From a virus: a stretch of 27,575 bases of DNA. The translations under genes and the position numbers were made by a program. Shown here piece after piece: positions 2,080-26,831 of this stretch. The notes below the pieces were generated by a model, which worked only from the letters and a program-made list of their open reading frames with translations, did no database searches and was not told where the DNA came from. Location of the stretch: IMG/VR virus record IMGVR_UViG_3300022699_000134, positions 1 to 27,575 of that record; one strand, 5' to 3'. The first letter of the stretch is position 1. Each line of letters begins with the position of its first letter.

Positions 2080-2225
2080 CGTTGGAGGAAGCGCAAAAAT
2101 TAGCCGTTTGCTTATTTGATATATACGATTACACACCTTATGTGCGTCATCTAGGAGGTGAAAATTACGCTGTAGAGGTGATTTTTGAGAAAAAGATTCT
2201 TAGTATTAAAACTTGCCGTTATTAA
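2076..2225 (+). CDS. Small hypothetical protein overlapping the terL stop
   Basis: A 49-residue ORF starts at an ATG overlapping the terL stop (ATGA at 2076-2079) and ends at TAA 2223-2225. It begins MTLEEAQKLAVCLFDIY and continues with a segment reading YAVEVIFEKKILSIKTCRY, which looks like a helix followed by two beta strands. The overlap suggests translational coupling to terL. It resembles no family I can name. Its stop codon lies inside the first conserved bases of regulatory element A, so the gene ends exactly where that element begins. Confidence 0.6.
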   Translation: MTLEEAQKLAVCLFDIYDYTPYVRHLGGENYAVEVIFEKKILSIKTCRY

Positions 2226-2357
2226 CAATCTGGTGTTTATTTTTGTTTTTTTTCTGCTATATATAGGGAGAAAAAAAATAAAACATCGGATTTTGTCTTT
2301 GCATTTTTTTCTCTGCGTGTGCTCATTTGCGCACCCGCAGATAAAAAGATGCTTGCA
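2220..2357 (+). promoter_or_regulatory. Element A: repeated promoter-like region with a covarying hairpin
   Basis: This ~138-base stretch is homologous to 18614-18753. Shared parts in order: ATTAACAATCT, GTGTTTATTTT, a T-rich arm, CTGCTATATATAGG, an A-rich arm, a TTTG-type -7 box (TGTCTTTG at 2294-2301), CTTTGCATTTTTTTCTCT, a hairpin at 2312-2341, and AGATAAAAAGATGCTTGCA. The 24-base hairpin core (2315-2338) differs strongly from that in element B but folds the same way. If the -7 box is used, RNA would start just upstream of the hairpin, placing it at the 5' end of the transcript. It lies upstream of a small gene at 2446. Function is unknown; the repetition and shared pairing are seen directly. 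Confidence 0.75.
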
Positions 2358-2372
2358 TAGCTGACAAAAAAA

Positions 2373-2453
2373 ATGAGGTATACATTCGGACGGTATAGTT
2401 TTTTTAGTAACTTGATTGAGCAACAACAACAAAAAAGTAAAAGTTATGTATAG
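2373..2453 (+). CDS. Possible 26-residue leader peptide
   Basis: An ATG after an A-rich leader opens a 26-codon frame (MRYTFGRYSFFSNLIEQQQQ, then KSKSYV) that ends in TAG at 2451-2453. It overlaps the ATG of the next gene at 2446 by eight bases. It could be a leader peptide coupling translation to the following gene, or chance. There is no equivalent ORF after element B, which argues against a conserved role. Confidence 0.2.
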   Translation: MRYTFGRYSFFSNLIEQQQQKSKSYV

Positions 2454-2640
2454 CAGTTTTGAAATTGGGGATATCCTCAAAAGCAACAAATTCAAATGGG
2501 TGTACAAGATCATCAACATTAAGAATGGTGTGGCCACCCTGGAAGACATTAACAAGAACACCGTGAGAGTTAGGTTCACTCTTTCCGCTTTGGCGCAGCG
2601 GGTAAAAAACGGTATCTTTGCCCATCGGCCGCAGATGTAG
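2446..2640 (+). CDS. Small hypothetical protein of a moron-like cassette
   Basis: This is a 64-residue protein starting MYSSFEIGDILKSNKFKWVY. The alternation of short beta strands (VYKIINI, GVATLEDI, TVRVRF) followed by a helix suggests a small SH3-like barrel; no family is recognised. I prefer the ATG at 2446 over the upstream TTG at 2416, because the intervening sequence (AACAACAACAAAAAAG) is the A-rich leader typical of Bacteroidota genes. The gene is bounded by regulatory element A upstream and an intrinsic terminator at 2668 downstream, while terminase and portal lie on either side. That arrangement, one gene with its own signals inside the late region, is what is called a moron, so it may be expressed at a different time from the structural genes. 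Confidence 0.65.
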   Translation: MYSSFEIGDILKSNKFKWVYKIINIKNGVATLEDINKNTVRVRFTLSALAQRVKNGIFAHRPQM

Positions 2641-18459: not shown

Positions 18460-18506
18460 AGCATACATTCAGCAGCTCGCAGCTGTTGTTTTGTTGTTGT
18501 GTGATG

Positions 18507-18538
18507 GCCTCGTTGGAGAAATCTAACGGGGCTTTTTT
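18507..18538 (+). terminator. Intrinsic terminator closing the lysis operon
   Basis: An 11-bp stem (GCCTCGTTGGA with TCTAACGGGGC, two G-T wobbles) capped by a GAAA tetraloop is followed by six T residues (18533-18538). It lies 47 bases after the spanin stop and separates the late genes from element B and the replication genes. Confidence 0.9.
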
Positions 18539-18613
18539 AGTATTTTATACTATACCAATAGATGAGGAATGGCTGTTTTTGGAGTGTCTCAAATATGAAT
18601 CAAAAACGGGGTT

Positions 18614-18753
18614 TATTAACAATCTAGTGTTTATTTTCTTTTTTCTCCTGCTATATATAGGAAAAGAAAAAAAAACATTCTTCAAATTCTACCTTTGCAT
18701 TTTTTTCTCTAGGTGGCCGGATGGCCGGCCCCCTAGATAAAAAGATGCTTGCA
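18614..18753 (+). promoter_or_regulatory. Element B: second copy of the promoter-like region with covarying hairpin
   Basis: Homologous to 2220-2357. It contains ATTAACAATCT, GTGTTTATTTT, CTGCTATATATAGG, an A-rich arm, a good -7 box TACCTTTG (18690-18697), the identical CTTTGCATTTTTTTCTCT, a hairpin at 18708-18737 whose core (18711-18734) is AGGTGGCCGGATGGCCGGCC plus CCCT, and the identical AGATAAAAAGATGCTTGCA. The hairpin would begin close to the expected transcription start. It lies between the late terminator and the replication genes, so it may drive early expression of the block starting at 18907. Confidence 0.78.
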
Positions 18754-18811
18754 GCTATGGTAGAAAAATACTAACGGCAAAAAACCATTGCTTTTGATCG
18801 TGCCAGGGGGC

Positions 18812-18832
18812 TGTGGACAACGCTGTGGAAAA
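18812..18832 (+). other. Pair of DnaA-box-like sites, possible origin
   Basis: CTGTGGACAACG and CTGTGGAAAATT follow each other at 12-base spacing. TGTGGACAA (18812-18820) and TGTGGAAAA (18824-18832) each differ by one base from the reverse complement of the consensus DnaA box TTATCCACA. They are flanked by an AT-rich stretch (18831-18867) and sit in the only long non-coding stretch of the window, 0.8 kb before a gene for a DnaA-domain-IV-like protein. An origin role is inferred. Confidence 0.4.
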
Positions 18833-18850
18833 TTATTTGTGTGTTGATTG

Positions 18851-18880
18851 TTGTTAATTAAAACAAACCTTGTATGTTTA
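18851..18880 (+). promoter_or_regulatory. Bacteroidota-type promoter upstream of the early genes
   Basis: TTG at 18851-18853 and TATGTTTA at 18873-18880 are 19 bases apart, matching the -33/-7 plan TTTG and TAnnTTTG with the last G replaced by A. The small gene at 18907 and then SSB follow. Confidence 0.55.
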
Positions 18881-19100: not shown

Positions 19101-19646
19101 ATGGCAAAGTTAGATTTTGCAAAAGGTGTATCGGCAGTATTGACCGGCACAACAAACTGGGCGCAGCTCACGGAGAAGAGCGGCCCTAACAAGATGAGCG
19201 GTAAGTATCAGGTAGAGCTTACCCTAGATGCGGAGAGCATCAAAACGCTAGAGGGCATGAAGATTCTTCCGCACCTCGAGATTAAGCGCCAGGACGGCAG
19301 TAAAAAGTACGAGCTACCAACCGTTCGCTTGAAGACCAACAACCCACCACAACTGTGGGACACGGCAAAGATGCCTTTTGACGGCCTTATTGGTAACGGC
19401 AGCACCCTACGTGCCAAGACGTACATTAAGAGCTGGGAGATGGCAGGAAAGAAGGGTCTGACGGCCTACATCAACAAAGGTGTAGTCTTATCTCTCAACG
19501 ATGTTGATGGTGCAGACGATGACGATCTTTGGGAAGATGTAGAACTCACTGCTCCAGTGACGGCTGAACAAACTACCGGCCCGGAAGCTTTTGGGGACAG
19601 CGTCATTGACGATGGTAAGGAACAAGACGATGACCTCCCGTTCTGA
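19101..19646 (+). CDS. ssb: Single-stranded DNA-binding protein (T7 gp2.5-like OB fold)
   Basis: A 181-residue protein that should coat ssDNA in replication and recombination. The body has the pattern of phage SSBs of the gp2.5/DUF2815 kind: SGPNKMSGKYQVELTLDAES, then KILPHLEIKRQDGSKKYELP and TLRAKTYIKSWEMAGKKGLT. The C-terminus is strongly acidic and ends DDDLPF, very like the DDDIPF tip with which bacterial SSBs bind partner proteins. The tip and the basic body together make the call. It is preceded by alternative hairpins, and its last base is shared with the start of the next gene. Confidence 0.82.
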   Translation: MAKLDFAKGVSAVLTGTTNWAQLTEKSGPNKMSGKYQVELTLDAESIKTLEGMKILPHLEIKRQDGSKKYELPTVRLKTNNPPQLWDTAKMPFDGLIGNGSTLRAKTYIKSWEMAGKKGLTAYINKGVVLSLNDVDGADDDDLWEDVELTAPVTAEQTTGPEAFGDSVIDDGKEQDDDLPF

Positions 19647-20248
19647 TGACTAGAGAGCACAAACTTATCCAAGCTGTGCGTGAAAACTTCGGTATTGACG
19701 CCTCTCTGCGCACAAGACGTAGAGAGGTCGTTGATGCCCGCAACGCCATTATGGTGGCCCTACGCAAGTACCACACCTTTGCAGACATCGGGAAGATGTT
19801 CCCCTACAACGCAAGAAAGGACGGTAAGGTCGTAGTACGATCTATGAGCCATTGCACTGTACTTCACGCTTACAACCAGCATCATCATCGCTACGATGCG
19901 GACCTGAACAAACGCATTTATTACAATCAGCTGTATTGCGAGATTTATGAGTACTGCCTGGACTATTTAGGTCAAGAAGGTAACAAGCCAATGAGCGTGA
20001 GTGAGCTCAGAGAGAAGATGCAGTACCACCGCTACCTTGAGAAAGAGGCGAATGAGCAAAACAAGCACCTCAAGGACCAATTTAGGGAGTACCGTAAAAG
20101 CAGAGATGAAGAGGTCACGCTCCTGGAGAAAGAGATTGCCAAGCTGCAAAAGCAACTGACTAAGGTAGAGGTCGAGCGTGATAAGGTAAAAACGGCATTT
20201 ACCGCTTTGTATAACGAGAAGAAGGCGAGAGCCGAAATAAACAAATGA
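19646..20248 (+). CDS. DnaA domain IV-like DNA-binding protein with coiled-coil tail
   Basis: A 200-residue protein whose N-terminal half resembles the DNA-binding domain IV of DnaA: RTRRREVVDARNAIMVALRK (22-41), then FADIGKMF and the signature-like MSHCTVLHAY (67-76), compared with RDHTTVLHAC in E. coli DnaA. A ~15-residue insert lies between IGKMF and the signature. There is no AAA+ domain. Residues ~118-195 form a long charged coiled coil (LLEKEIAKLQKQLTKVEVER). It could recognise DnaA-box-like DNA (two such sites are at 18812) and recruit replication proteins, or compete with host DnaA. It overlaps the SSB stop by one base and the next gene by four. Confidence 0.7.
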   Translation: MTREHKLIQAVRENFGIDASLRTRRREVVDARNAIMVALRKYHTFADIGKMFPYNARKDGKVVVRSMSHCTVLHAYNQHHHRYDADLNKRIYYNQLYCEIYEYCLDYLGQEGNKPMSVSELREKMQYHRYLEKEANEQNKHLKDQFREYRKSRDEEVTLLEKEIAKLQKQLTKVEVERDKVKTAFTALYNEKKARAEINK

Positions 20249-22700: not shown

Positions 22701-23040
22701 TGGCGCCATCTCAGAGCTGGCTGTTGCCTCTAAACTTGTAGAGTTCGGCTGGGCAGTAGCGTTCCCGTTCACCCACGATAATGATTGGGACCTTATTGCC
22801 TATAAAAAAGGTAGGACAATCACCGTGCAAGTGAAAGGTGCGGAGTTCATCGAGTACAACCACACCGTGGTGAAGCAGAATTTTGCGCAGTACAAAGATG
22901 TAGACTTTATTGTCCTGCACGATCGCATTCAACGGACCTTTTACATCTTTGCAAAGGGAGAGCTCAACAGCCGCAAAGCGGTGACCATGGACCCTAACAA
23001 ATGGACCACTCAGTTCAATAACTGGAAACGTATTAAATGA
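22687..23040 (+). CDS. PD-(D/E)XK endonuclease-like protein
   Basis: 117 residues with the PDDEXK_5 / intron-endonuclease-like layout: an N-terminal helix with SSGAISELAVASKLVEFGWA (glutamate E10), then THDNDWDLIAYKKG (D35 of the catalytic motif) and ITVQVKGAEF (QVK in place of ExK). Proteins of this shape resemble Holliday-junction resolvases. Overlaps at both ends (14 and 4 bases) place it in one operon with VRR-NUC and primase-polymerase. Role in resolving replication intermediates is inferred. Confidence 0.75.
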   Translation: MSLSSGAISELAVASKLVEFGWAVAFPFTHDNDWDLIAYKKGRTITVQVKGAEFIEYNHTVVKQNFAQYKDVDFIVLHDRIQRTFYIFAKGELNSRKAVTMDPNKWTTQFNNWKRIK

Positions 23041-25004
23041 ACACGACAACAATAGCAAAGAAATACATCGCCCACGGCTTCTCCCCTATCCCATTGGTAG
23101 ATGGACAGAAGCGCCCAAGCATCCGAAACTGGCAGCAATATAGTGAGGAGCCTATGGGCCTTAAAGAGGCGGAGCAGCTCTTCCAAACCACCACATCTAT
23201 TGGTTTGGTGATGGGCTTCGACGGCATTCAATGCCTGGACATAGATGCTAAGCACTTCAGAGGTGAGGAGTACAAAACATTCACCGAGCGCCTGGAAGAA
23301 GAGGCGCCAGGACTCAAGGACAAGATGATTATTCAAACTACCATCTCAGGCGGCTACCATTGGATATTCAAGTGCGACGAGATAGAAGGCAACCAAAAGC
23401 TCGCAAGAAACATTGACGGCGAGGTGACGTTTGAGACCCGTGGTAAAGGCGGTCAAATCGTTACCTACCCGAGCAAAGGGTACAAGATACTCGGAAAGAT
23501 AACGAACGTGCAGCGCATCAGCCCCGCTGAGCGTGACGTTATCTTCCGAGTGGCCCGTACAATGGACGAGATGCAAAAGGAGGTAGTGGTAGAGATAAAA
23601 GCGCATGGAGATCGTGAGACGGAGAACCACACGCCTTGGGGAGAGTTTAGAGAGAGCCACAGCGCCCTAGACATTATCCTTAGATACGGCTGGACCATCA
23701 CTGGGGAGAGCAACAAGTACATCTACCTGCTCAGACCCGGCAACACCGATGCTAAGACCAGTGGGGTGATATTTAAGGACAGCGGCCTGTTTTGGCCGTG
23801 GACCACAAGCACCGAGTTTGAAGCAGAGCAGCCCTACGACGGCTTCCAATGCTATGCCGTTTTGGAGCACGGTGGAAACTTTGACAACGCAATAGCAGAC
23901 ATTAGAGCACAAGGATATGGAAAGAAATACGAGCTCACCGCACCGACCGACTTCAACATTGAGACGGAAGACGAGGAGGTGGTGGAAGATATGGCGCAGC
24001 GCCTTGCGTCACTTAAAGTGGACAGTACTATTGAGGTCACCCAACCTCCAAAAGCTATTGAGATGGTCTTCGGGCAGAAGAGCTACATCTTTGGCTCGCT
24101 GGGCAACTTCTCATTGGTGCAAGGTAAGGCAAAGAGCCGCAAGAGTTATTTCCTCAGCGCCATCTGCGCAGCAGCAGCGAGTGATGGACTTGTTTGCAAC
24201 CTCCTACGGGGATACATTCACCCACGCAAGGTCATTTATATTGATACGGAGCAAGGAGATTACCACGCCGCAAAAGCCAAGAAGCGCATCCACGAGATGG
24301 CAGGGCTCCAGCACAGCGTCAACTACGACAACTTGGAGTACTACCGCTTCCGTGGTTTGGACACCAACGCTGAGCGACTCAAGTTTATCGACTACATACT
24401 GCAAACCGAAGAGAACATCGGCTACGTCATCATAGATGGTATTGCAGACATCGCCTCCAAAGGGGTGAACGATGAGGAGGAAGCTACAGCGATAGCTTCC
24501 AAGCTACTCAAATGGACGGCGGAGTACAACTGCCACATCACCTGCGTGCTCCACGAGAATAAGAACGACCGCAACGCTAAAGGACACCTCGGTGCCTACT
24601 TGGTGCAGAAGGCAGAGACGACGTTCTCCACCAAGAAGAGTGAGAACAACAAGGACATTACCGAGATCACACCGGAATACACCCGTAACATCGAGCCACC
24701 GGCGATAGAGATGACTGTTGGAGGCTTTGACGTGGTAGAGTTCTCAGAGATAGAGGTCGACGAGTTCTACAACCGCACAAGAGTGTGGACCGATGAGGAC
24801 CAGGAGCGCATCGCTCTCAAGATTATTGGTAAGAGCAAAGGAGATGCTGCCACGTTCATCCGTGATACGGAAGATTGCAAGCGTAAAGATGCAGAGAAGG
24901 TACTCGCTATAATGGAAGACGGCGGAGCTATACACTGGGAAGGCAAGCGCCCAAAAATCGCTGCCCTTGGTAGAGGAGATAATAGACAAAATTTAGAACT
25001 ATGA
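23037..25004 (+). CDS. Bifunctional primase-polymerase with RepA/RecA-like helicase domain
   Basis: A 655-residue replication protein. Residues 1-185 form an archaeo-eukaryotic-type prim-pol: AKKYIAHGFSPIPLVDGQKR, SIGLVMGFDGIQCLDIDA with D68/D70, GGYHWIFKC with H108, and ETRGKGGQIVTYPS. Residues ~208-295 are the linker domain common in such proteins (ALDIILRYGWT to FDNAIADIRAQGYG). Residues ~345-560 are a RecA/DnaB-like ATPase: GKAKSRKS (363-370, Walker A), VIYIDTEQGD, VIIDGIADIA (Walker B) and LHENKND. It combines priming and unwinding and is likely the core replicase. No family A/B DNA polymerase is present, so elongation may use the host polymerase. Confidence 0.92.
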   Translation: MNTTTIAKKYIAHGFSPIPLVDGQKRPSIRNWQQYSEEPMGLKEAEQLFQTTTSIGLVMGFDGIQCLDIDAKHFRGEEYKTFTERLEEEAPGLKDKMIIQTTISGGYHWIFKCDEIEGNQKLARNIDGEVTFETRGKGGQIVTYPSKGYKILGKITNVQRISPAERDVIFRVARTMDEMQKEVVVEIKAHGDRETENHTPWGEFRESHSALDIILRYGWTITGESNKYIYLLRPGNTDAKTSGVIFKDSGLFWPWTTSTEFEAEQPYDGFQCYAVLEHGGNFDNAIADIRAQGYGKKYELTAPTDFNIETEDEEVVEDMAQRLASLKVDSTIEVTQPPKAIEMVFGQKSYIFGSLGNFSLVQGKAKSRKSYFLSAICAAAASDGLVCNLLRGYIHPRKVIYIDTEQGDYHAAKAKKRIHEMAGLQHSVNYDNLEYYRFRGLDTNAERLKFIDYILQTEENIGYVIIDGIADIASKGVNDEEEATAIASKLLKWTAEYNCHITCVLHENKNDRNAKGHLGAYLVQKAETTFSTKKSENNKDITEITPEYTRNIEPPAIEMTVGGFDVVEFSEIEVDEFYNRTRVWTDEDQERIALKIIGKSKGDAATFIRDTEDCKRKDAEKVLAIMEDGGAIHWEGKRPKIAALGRGDNRQNLEL

Positions 25005-25535: not shown

Positions 25536-25678
25536 GATTTCCCGACAGCTACATTGATGACGGCAACCCGTGGACCACGGACACCGAGTGCTGCGCTTGG
25601 TGCGGCACAAATACCGAGCGATTCGTTTGGATTGACAACGAGCCGATGTGTGAGGAGTGTGAACACTTTGAAGATTAG
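25532..25678 (+). CDS. Small zinc-finger-like protein
   Basis: A 48-residue ORF beginning MRFPDSYIDDGNPWTTDTEC, with CAWC and CEEC pairs 19 residues apart, suggesting one zinc site. Its ATG overlaps the previous stop (ATGA) and its own stop lies four bases before the methyltransferase ATG, so it tiles perfectly. It is too short to be noticed by many gene callers. Function unknown. Confidence 0.65.
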   Translation: MRFPDSYIDDGNPWTTDTECCAWCGTNTERFVWIDNEPMCEECEHFED

Positions 25679-25682
25679 AGAG

Positions 25683-26831
25683 ATGAGTGACGCATTACAA
25701 ATTAATCAGCTAGACCTATTCTCCGGCATCGGAGGATTCCACCTTGGCTTCGAGCGTGCAGGCTACAAGGTGAACAGCTATTTCTCTGAGGTAGACAAGC
25801 ACGCCATCGCAGTATATAAACAACAATTCAAAAACAGTACTTATGTTGGATCAGTTACAGATGTTCGGGGAAGAGACCTCCCGAAAATTGACCTCATCAC
25901 TTTCGGAAGTCCTTGCCAAGATTTCTCATTGGCTGGAAAAAGAAAAGGGATGGAAGGAGAAAGAAGTTCTCTTATCAAAGAAGCAATTAGACTCATTCAC
26001 GAGTGCAGACCTCGTGTATTTGTCTGGGAAAATGTTAAAGGAACATTCTCCTCAAACGATGGCGCAGACTTTTGGGCAATTATCCAAGCCTTTGCCGACA
26101 TTGGGGGTTATAGACTTGAGTGGCAACTGCTTAACACAAGTTGGTTTCTACCCCAAAATAGAGAGCGCATATACCTTGTCGGATATTCTACAAAGCCCCG
26201 AAGAGATTGGCGAGGAGTTTTTCCTATCGGAGGGAGCGCAGGAGAGAATATTAAGCTACCGAGACAACAAGGAATTTCCTGCACCCTTACTACAAGATAC
26301 GGAGCAGACAGTAACGGGTCATTCCTTATTACAGATAAACAGTCTGCGGAAAAATTCAAAATAAAAAGCGCCACTAAACAAGGCTACGAGATTGCAGAGG
26401 AAGGCGACAGCATTAACCTGGCACAACCAAGTAGTACCACTCGCAGGGGTCGTGTGGGTAAAGGTAAAGCCAACACACTTGAAACATCTTGCAACCAAGC
26501 GGTAGTGCAGCCTACAACTTGTAGAGGTGGTTTACAAAAGAACGCAGCGCACTTTGAAGAGAAAAGCCCAGCTCTTACTTCTGCTATGGGAATGGGAGGA
26601 GGTCACACGCCAATAGTAGACCAACCTAACTACCGCATAAGAAGACTAACCCCTATAGAGTGTGAGAGACTACAAGGATTCCCAGATAACCATACCGAGT
26701 ACGGCAACTATGATGGTGAGGTTAAGAAGATGAGCAACACCCAGCGCTATAAGCAATGCGGCAACGCAGTGACCGTTGATGTGGTTCAAGCTGTAGCAGA
26801 ACAATTAAAACCTATTTACTATGCCGAATAG
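25683..26831 (+). CDS. DNA (cytosine-5) methyltransferase
   Basis: 382 residues from the ATG at 25683; a longer frame to 25554 exists but its extra residues are the out-of-frame copy of the zinc-finger gene. All hallmark motifs are in order: I LDLFSGIGGFHLGFERAG (10-27), IV FGSPCQDFSLAGKRKGM with catalytic C78, VI WENVKG (115-120), VIII QNRERIYLVGY (158-168), IX RRLTPIECERLQGFP (320-334) and X QCGNAVTVDVVQAVAEQL. The target-recognition region lies at ~170-318. No cognate restriction enzyme is recognised, so it probably protects phage DNA. It overlaps the HNH gene by 11 bases. A long +1-frame ORF is nested at 25843-26364. Confidence 0.95.
   Translation: MSDALQINQLDLFSGIGGFHLGFERAGYKVNSYFSEVDKHAIAVYKQQFKNSTYVGSVTDVRGRDLPKIDLITFGSPCQDFSLAGKRKGMEGERSSLIKEAIRLIHECRPRVFVWENVKGTFSSNDGADFWAIIQAFADIGGYRLEWQLLNTSWFLPQNRERIYLVGYSTKPRRDWRGVFPIGGSAGENIKLPRQQGISCTLTTRYGADSNGSFLITDKQSAEKFKIKSATKQGYEIAEEGDSINLAQPSSTTRRGRVGKGKANTLETSCNQAVVQPTTCRGGLQKNAAHFEEKSPALTSAMGMGGGHTPIVDQPNYRIRRLTPIECERLQGFPDNHTEYGNYDGEVKKMSNTQRYKQCGNAVTVDVVQAVAEQLKPIYYAE

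Follow-up and report, generated by a model that had tools for sequence, protein, structure and literature searches.

What does a duplicated, intergenic stem-loop that keeps its base pairing while its sequence changes do for a phage? This question is raised by two copies of an element (Table 1) in an IMG/VR virus record of 27,575 nt, the whole of which was analyzed and is referred to here as the window. A preliminary description had reported both copies, each as a 24-base hairpin core between identical flanks. Two copies do exist: a search of the window with the exact-flank pattern TTTGCATTTTTTTCTCT-N15..40-AGATAAAAAGATGC gives two matches, and 100 shuffles give none. The hairpin had been assigned to positions 2312 to 2341, a range that adds 3 bp of flank to the 24-base core; the cores themselves lie at 2315 to 2338 and 18711 to 18734. 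Folding showed that each copy forms a single stem-loop of approximately 80 nt, comprising an outer stem P1 of 7 bp, an asymmetric internal loop (TTT on the 5' side and 10 nt on the 3' side), a 10-bp stem P2 that includes one T.G pair, a C x T mismatch, a third stem P3, and an apical loop that is of neither the GNRA nor the UNCG type. The identical flanks are present but are not mere flanks, being paired with each other as P2 within this larger stem-loop; in copy 1, GCATTTTTTT (2301-2310) pairs with AAAAAGATGC (2343-2352), and TCT pairs with AGA. The two copies have fold z-scores of -5.6 and -6.2, and by GC-corrected folding energy no other 80-nt segment of the window folds as strongly as copy 2.

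Table 1. Positions of the two element copies, their parts, and associated features in the window
Feature	Position	Strand	Description
Element copy 1	2219-2369	+	
Copy 1 dyad A	2219-2240	+	TTATTAACA-N6-TGTTTAT; inverted pair of DnaA-box-like sites
Copy 1 AT-rich module	2241-2290		T-tract, TATATATA (2258-2265), A-tract; candidate unwinding element
Copy 1 stem-loop	2291-2369	+	P1 2291-2297/2363-2369; internal loop 2298-2300/2353-2362
Copy 1 stem-loop, inner part			P2 2301-2310/2343-2352; C x T 2311/2342; P3 and apical loop 2312-2341
Small conserved ORF	2446-2640	+	Between copy 1 and portal gene; F.VGDYL.SKRFGWQYKI..NGVAVLQDI
Element copy 2	18613-18765	+	
Copy 2 dyad A	18613-18634	+	TTATTAACA-N6-TGTTTAT
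Copy 2 AT-rich module	18635-18686		TATATATA at 18652-18659
Copy 2 stem-loop	18687-18765	+	P1 18687-18693/18759-18765; internal loop 18694-18696/18749-18758
Copy 2 stem-loop, inner part			P2 18697-18706/18739-18748; C x T 18707/18738; P3 and apical loop 18708-18737
Two DnaA-box-like 9-mers	18812-18832	-	TTGTCCACA, TTTTCCACA; one mismatch each; between copy 2 and early promoter
Early (ssb) operon promoter-like sequence	18851-18880	+	TTGTTAATT..TATGTTTA; 3' of stem-loop
First long ORF of early operon	19101-19646	+	Called ssb from position and sequence character only
DnaA-domain-IV-like protein	19646-20248	+	Candidate dyad A binder; beside ssb
Primase-polymerase with AAA_25 ATPase	23037-25004	+	Candidate priming/unwinding protein

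All five compensatory pairs reported for the core (positions 1-24, 2-23, 6-19, 7-18, and 10-15) are present, as is the T x C mismatch kept in both copies at 4-21. Outside the element as first described, P1 is unlike in the two copies yet paired in both (TTTTGTC/GACAAAA in copy 1 versus TTCTACC/GGTAGAA in copy 2), which contributes three further compensatory pairs. Comparison of the copies shows both partners replaced, and pairing retained, at 8 of 28 pairs; two null models, in which the differences of the 3' arm were either redistributed or redrawn, gave P values of 0.0017 and 0.0007. We then turned to relatives, for which about 170 viral loci were gathered by TerL, portal, and ssb searches. 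In an alignment of 26 rows (23 distinct) fitted to the structure, double compensatory changes were found at 22 of 27 pairs, in P1, P2, and P3 alike; 89% of cells pair, and the covariation score was 0.529 compared with 0.175 for shuffled alignments (0/500 shuffles) and at most 0.163 for slid controls. A MAFFT alignment that was not fitted to the structure gave the same picture (0.300 versus 0.142; 0/500). In favor of a chance resemblance or an alignment artifact, the window by itself offers a sample of just two copies (P of about 0.001), but 23 distinct relatives, the absence of any equal among 500 shuffles, and the failure of the slid controls refute that explanation, to which we assign a negligible probability. 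Because the relatives keep the pairing while the sequence changes, these alignments strongly support the earlier proposal that pairing, rather than the letters themselves, is under selection. Homologs with broken pairing had been named there as a refutation; when the relatives were examined for this, pairing proved to be retained.

A covariance model built from 13 sequences recovered the element in more distant phages (L030, L031, L056, and L061 to L065) with E values of 4e-7 to 2e-9. The number of full-length matches is exactly two, both on the same strand, in the window and in each of five large related contigs (25 to 30 kb); where the context was checked, one copy follows terL and the other lies upstream of ssb. 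Nearly all of the approximately 40 closest terL-portal intervals of sufficient reach contain the element, and it recurs upstream of ssb. The P2 arms are identical between both copies in the window and in three other contigs and nearly so in a fourth (L071/L134), a sharing that fits gene conversion or a common trans-acting partner; in L070/L086 the arms differ between the two copies. The element was not found after terL in the related classes L034, L037, and L113, among others, a weak absence since these relatives are fragments, and some of these classes carry the primase-polymerase. Direct DNA searches of phage records and a search of viral contigs with the exact-flank pattern returned nothing useful. 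A profile search of genome contigs with the primase-polymerase found no prophage or host, and Bacteroidota as the host is a guess from the style of promoters and leaders. Two other hairpins were observed among the relatives. A conserved strong hairpin, GGATTCCACTACCGcaaaGATGCGGTAGTGGA, lies seemingly inside a late gene (L040:15811-15890, L113:14011-14090, L065:11911-11990, and L061:15523-15602), and a CCGGCG..T/A stem..CGCCGG hairpin upstream of a distant ssb (L138:3006-3095), without the TATATATA module, is a possible divergent member.

In order to determine which molecule folds, the use of wobble pairs was compared between strands. When wobble pairs were forbidden, the single mismatches inside the + strand stems comprised 35 T.G and 2 A.C, counts in which many rows are related and the independent contexts number about half a dozen. 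When they were allowed, the + folds contained 71 G.T pairs and the - folds 15, a comparison biased toward the + strand in that the segments were chosen from + folds. Under DNA energy parameters, the - strand fold is slightly the more stable one for most elements. Because T.G pairs far outnumber A.C mismatches, these observations argue for folding of the single-stranded + strand, as RNA or as single-stranded DNA, over a duplex palindrome.

This asymmetry bears on a DNA site that uses the paired hairpins for another role, such as packaging start, recombination or dimer resolution, partition, or a fork barrier. In favor of such a site, the late operon has the direct repeats on either side, the terminase genes are next to copy 1, and the phage encodes nucleases of the HNH, YqaJ/RecE-like, and resolvase-like kinds. 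However, the wobble asymmetry speaks against a duplex palindrome or cruciform, no integrase was recognized, and packaging sites are usually single and located upstream of terS; we consider such a role unlikely. A pair of intrinsic terminators would account for strong GC-containing hairpins between operons, but its polarity is wrong, since a T-run precedes the stem and an A-run follows it whichever strand is read, and separate terminator-like sites lie nearby (2668-2690, downstream of copy 1, and 18506-18533, preceding copy 2). This candidate was rejected and has very little probability of being correct.

Upstream of each stem-loop lie dyad A and an AT-rich module. Among 80-bp stretches of the window ranked by computed duplex stability, the module of copy 2 is the least stable and that of copy 1 the third least; the module is also the least stable stretch in several relatives. 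The order T-tract, TATATATA, A-tract is conserved among the relatives. The 9-mer TTATTAACA is one mismatch off the DnaA box consensus TTWTNCACA (PMC7561715), and its exact form is confined, within the window, to the two element copies. The right half of the dyad is degenerate in the window; relatives carry ATTAACA-N-TGTTAAT or, in another class, CTAACAG-N-CTGTTAG, at a fixed distance from TATATATA. The two halves vary jointly between classes (TTATTAACA..TGTTAAT versus CTAACAG..CTGTTAG), and dyad A is absent from the L030 class. Several relatives carry an exact TTATCCACA at the site between copy 2 and the early promoter. We found no genome-wide enrichment of DnaA-box-like words, no iterons, and no switch in GC skew.

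A combination of fixed spacing and an AT-rich tract might also mark a promoter. The TATATATA region would then be a phage promoter controlled via dyad A, and the + transcript would start with or contain the stem-loop, whose role might be that of a leader with a regulatory function, a site of RNA processing, an anti-terminator, or a small RNA. The strong covariation and the use of wobble pairs on the + strand suit such a structured RNA, the element is invariably codirectional with the downstream genes, the spacing between dyad A and TATATATA resembles operator/promoter geometry, and the terminator at 18506-18533 means that copy 2 would need a promoter of its own. However, promoter-like sequences, read by eye against the Bacteroidota consensus, were located 3' of the hairpin for both the small ORF and the early operon, and that of the portal operon follows the terminator-like site at 2668-2690, so that a leader or anti-terminator would seem unneeded. 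The small ORF, bounded by its own promoter-like sequence and the same terminator-like site, is moron-like and had no match in Pfam or NCBIfam; nor had the ORF called ssb. A small RNA would not be closed by any intrinsic terminator, the apical loop types do not point to RNA, TATATATA does not match the -7 box of Bacteroidota, and neither a sigma factor nor a phage RNA polymerase was recognized. In addition, no family in Rfam 15 matched at the gathering score, mir-3613 alone appearing below threshold. We regard a transcribed structured RNA as the main and a strong rival, though a less probable one than an origin; if it were correct, the element would be a phage RNA family with strong covariation and without an Rfam entry. 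Early-type promoters (window 18840-18880, and after the hairpin or terL in L030, L057, and L061) were also seen to have a directly repeated word, TTGTTAATcgTTGTTAATTA or, in the L061 class, TTGTGAATacTTGTGAGTT, recurring at a spacing of about 10 bp upstream of TAnnTTTG-like boxes; these repeat words vary by class, like dyad A.

The preliminary description had likewise placed the hairpin at the 5' end of an RNA, on the strength of a -7 box 10 bases upstream. That reading finds no support. The sequences concerned, TACCTTTG and TGTCTTTG, are the 3' half of P1 plus loop; P1 varies freely in relatives (TCTGCATTTG, ACCCATCG, TTGCACTCCC); the word TANNTTTG occurs in the window at chance frequency (23 found, 19.9 expected); and the promoter-like sequences sit after the hairpin at both sites. 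Of the roles listed there, a stability element, small RNA, or regulator target is possible, and the "ssDNA signal" is the option nearest to a replication origin.

The proteins encoded with the element are relevant to this last option. The protein encoded at 19646-20248 and nine homologues all match Pfam PF08299, DnaA domain IV (10/10 members; best E value, 5.4e-9), the window protein alone falling below the Pfam cutoff. The DnaA ATPase domain is absent. A long C-terminal helix is predicted in a structure model and suggests that the protein may dimerize; a Foldseek search with the DnaA-IV model, in which the long helix dominated, returned nothing significant, and no relative was found among 50,697 phage records. 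With DnaA contact residues taken from PMC7561715, the recognition residues are S-H-C-T/S with TTATTAACA; in the L062/L064 group they are D-H-S-T, and L056/L061, relatives of that group, carry TTGTGAATT-type sites. This covariation of recognition residues and box is suggestive and was set aside as evidence, since it rests on one change. The protein encoded at 23037-25004 matches a primase-polymerase family (PF09250; E value, 3.2e-11) and AAA_25 (PF13481; 7.7e-13) and is related to the structures of pRN1 ORF904 (4.5e-6); no SF3 helicase family was found in it with Pfam. Separately, an ORF at 25554-26831 resembles, by eye, a DNA cytosine methyltransferase and is overlapped by a 173-amino-acid ORF in another frame.

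We propose that the copies are paired early and late replication origins with a strand-specific stem-loop, the best explanation of the element and one that we give an even chance of being right. Copy 2 would be the origin at the early operon, upstream of ssb, and copy 1 that at the head of the late region, after terL. The DnaA-domain-IV-like protein would bind the inverted pair of boxes, the adjacent T-tract/TATATATA/A-tract would melt next, and the freed + strand would fold into the P1-P2-P3 stem-loop, a putative shape-specific landing or priming site for the primase-polymerase/ATPase. We infer the identity of the element as an origin, and each of these binding, melting, and priming steps, on comparative evidence: the anatomy, the selection on pairing, the folding asymmetry in favor of the + strand, the two copies at constant places in each phage, the low computed duplex stability, and the proteins with which the element co-occurs. 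The position of both elements, outside genes and ahead of the apparent downstream transcripts, also counts in favor of an origin. Several observations count against such an origin: the wobble enrichment is at least as natural for RNA, DNA parameters slightly favor the - strand, the ATPase is AAA_25 and not SF3, and the element is distant from the primase-polymerase gene. The degenerate right half of the dyad in the window, the lack of dyad A in the L030 class and of the element after terL in some classes, the absence of box enrichment, and the structure search with the DnaA-IV model weigh in the same direction. It is possible, and we suggest it tentatively, that these twin early/late modules constitute a new class of phage origin, in which a short DnaA-IV-only protein would take the place of full DnaA at the inverted pair of boxes and a strand-specific stem-loop recognized by shape, its stem sequence free as long as it is paired, would recruit the primase-polymerase.

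The layout of initiator sites, an AT-rich stretch, and a strand-specific priming hairpin recalls oriV of RSF1010, which has iterons, an AT-rich stretch, and two hairpins, ssiA/ssiB, at which RepB' acts as the primase. Homology to it was shown in neither sequence nor protein, and a sequence search of solved structures gave no match to RSF1010 RepA. Two copies of a structured element at operon starts are also a feature of HK022, where put encodes anti-terminator RNAs; here, in contrast, the downstream operons have promoter-like sequences after the element, and copy 1 is followed by a terminator-like site after which the promoter-like sequence of the portal operon lies. SPP1 has two established origins, oriL and oriR, 12 kb apart, one of them called late, and both are bound by one phage origin-binding protein (PMC3485210). 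The number per genome is the same as that of our element; SPP1 differs in its G38P and priming by host DnaG, and the text consulted describes no covarying stem-loop.

Although the preliminary description knew of no such element, and no Rfam family matched, PMC4234260 presents stem-loops of variable sequence and conserved fold as putative sites of replication origin in primase-polymerase replicons. In Bordetella phage BIP-1, a large stem-loop beside the primase-polymerase gene is a putative origin (PMC4234260). BIP-1/BPP-1 share with the present phage a tailed virion, a primase-polymerase, and a large stem-loop; they differ in that one copy is described, near the primase gene, without sequence homology to our element. 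In BPP-1 (L199, NC_005357) we observed, at approximately 26602-26711 on the - strand between bbp27 and bbp28, a 110-nt stem-loop with a 23-bp lower stem, an internal loop, and a T/A upper stem; its architecture recalls the present element, and it may or may not be the published hairpin.

The closest parallel to the fold is the stem-loop origin of the pRN1 family of Sulfolobus plasmids, which encode the ORF904 primase-polymerase (PMC4234260, PMC3869888). The pRN1 stem-loop, of about 100 nt, has low sequence conservation but a conserved fold between conserved flanks; replication depends on it, and one mutation in the stem was tolerated solely with a second mutation that restores symmetry (PMC4234260). 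Both systems combine a large stem-loop of variable sequence and conserved fold, set between conserved sequence, with an N-terminal primase-polymerase domain of the same family. The present element, however, belongs to a bacterial phage, is found in two copies, and is accompanied by AAA_25 where pRN1 has an SF3 helicase; the pRN1 site lies 3' of its gene, whereas the copies here lie at 2.3 and 18.7 kb and the gene at 23.0 to 25.0 kb; and a DnaA-box-like dyad, an AT-rich module, and a separate DnaA-IV-like protein are additional here. Without an SF3 helicase and a position 3' of the gene, the element is not classed as a pRN1-type member; at most, by analogy, it may work like a pRN1-type origin. 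Twin origins are considered the most likely reading because the element fits both the pRN1 stem-loop and the SPP1 two-origin pattern. The replication start sites and modes of most uncultured phages are a gap that such an element could help to fill and, if it is an origin, the covariance model could locate origins in metagenomic phages. What recognizes the pRN1 stem-loop would then become testable through many natural variants, and the primase-polymerase replicons of archaeal plasmids and bacterial phages would be suggested to share an origin based on fold.
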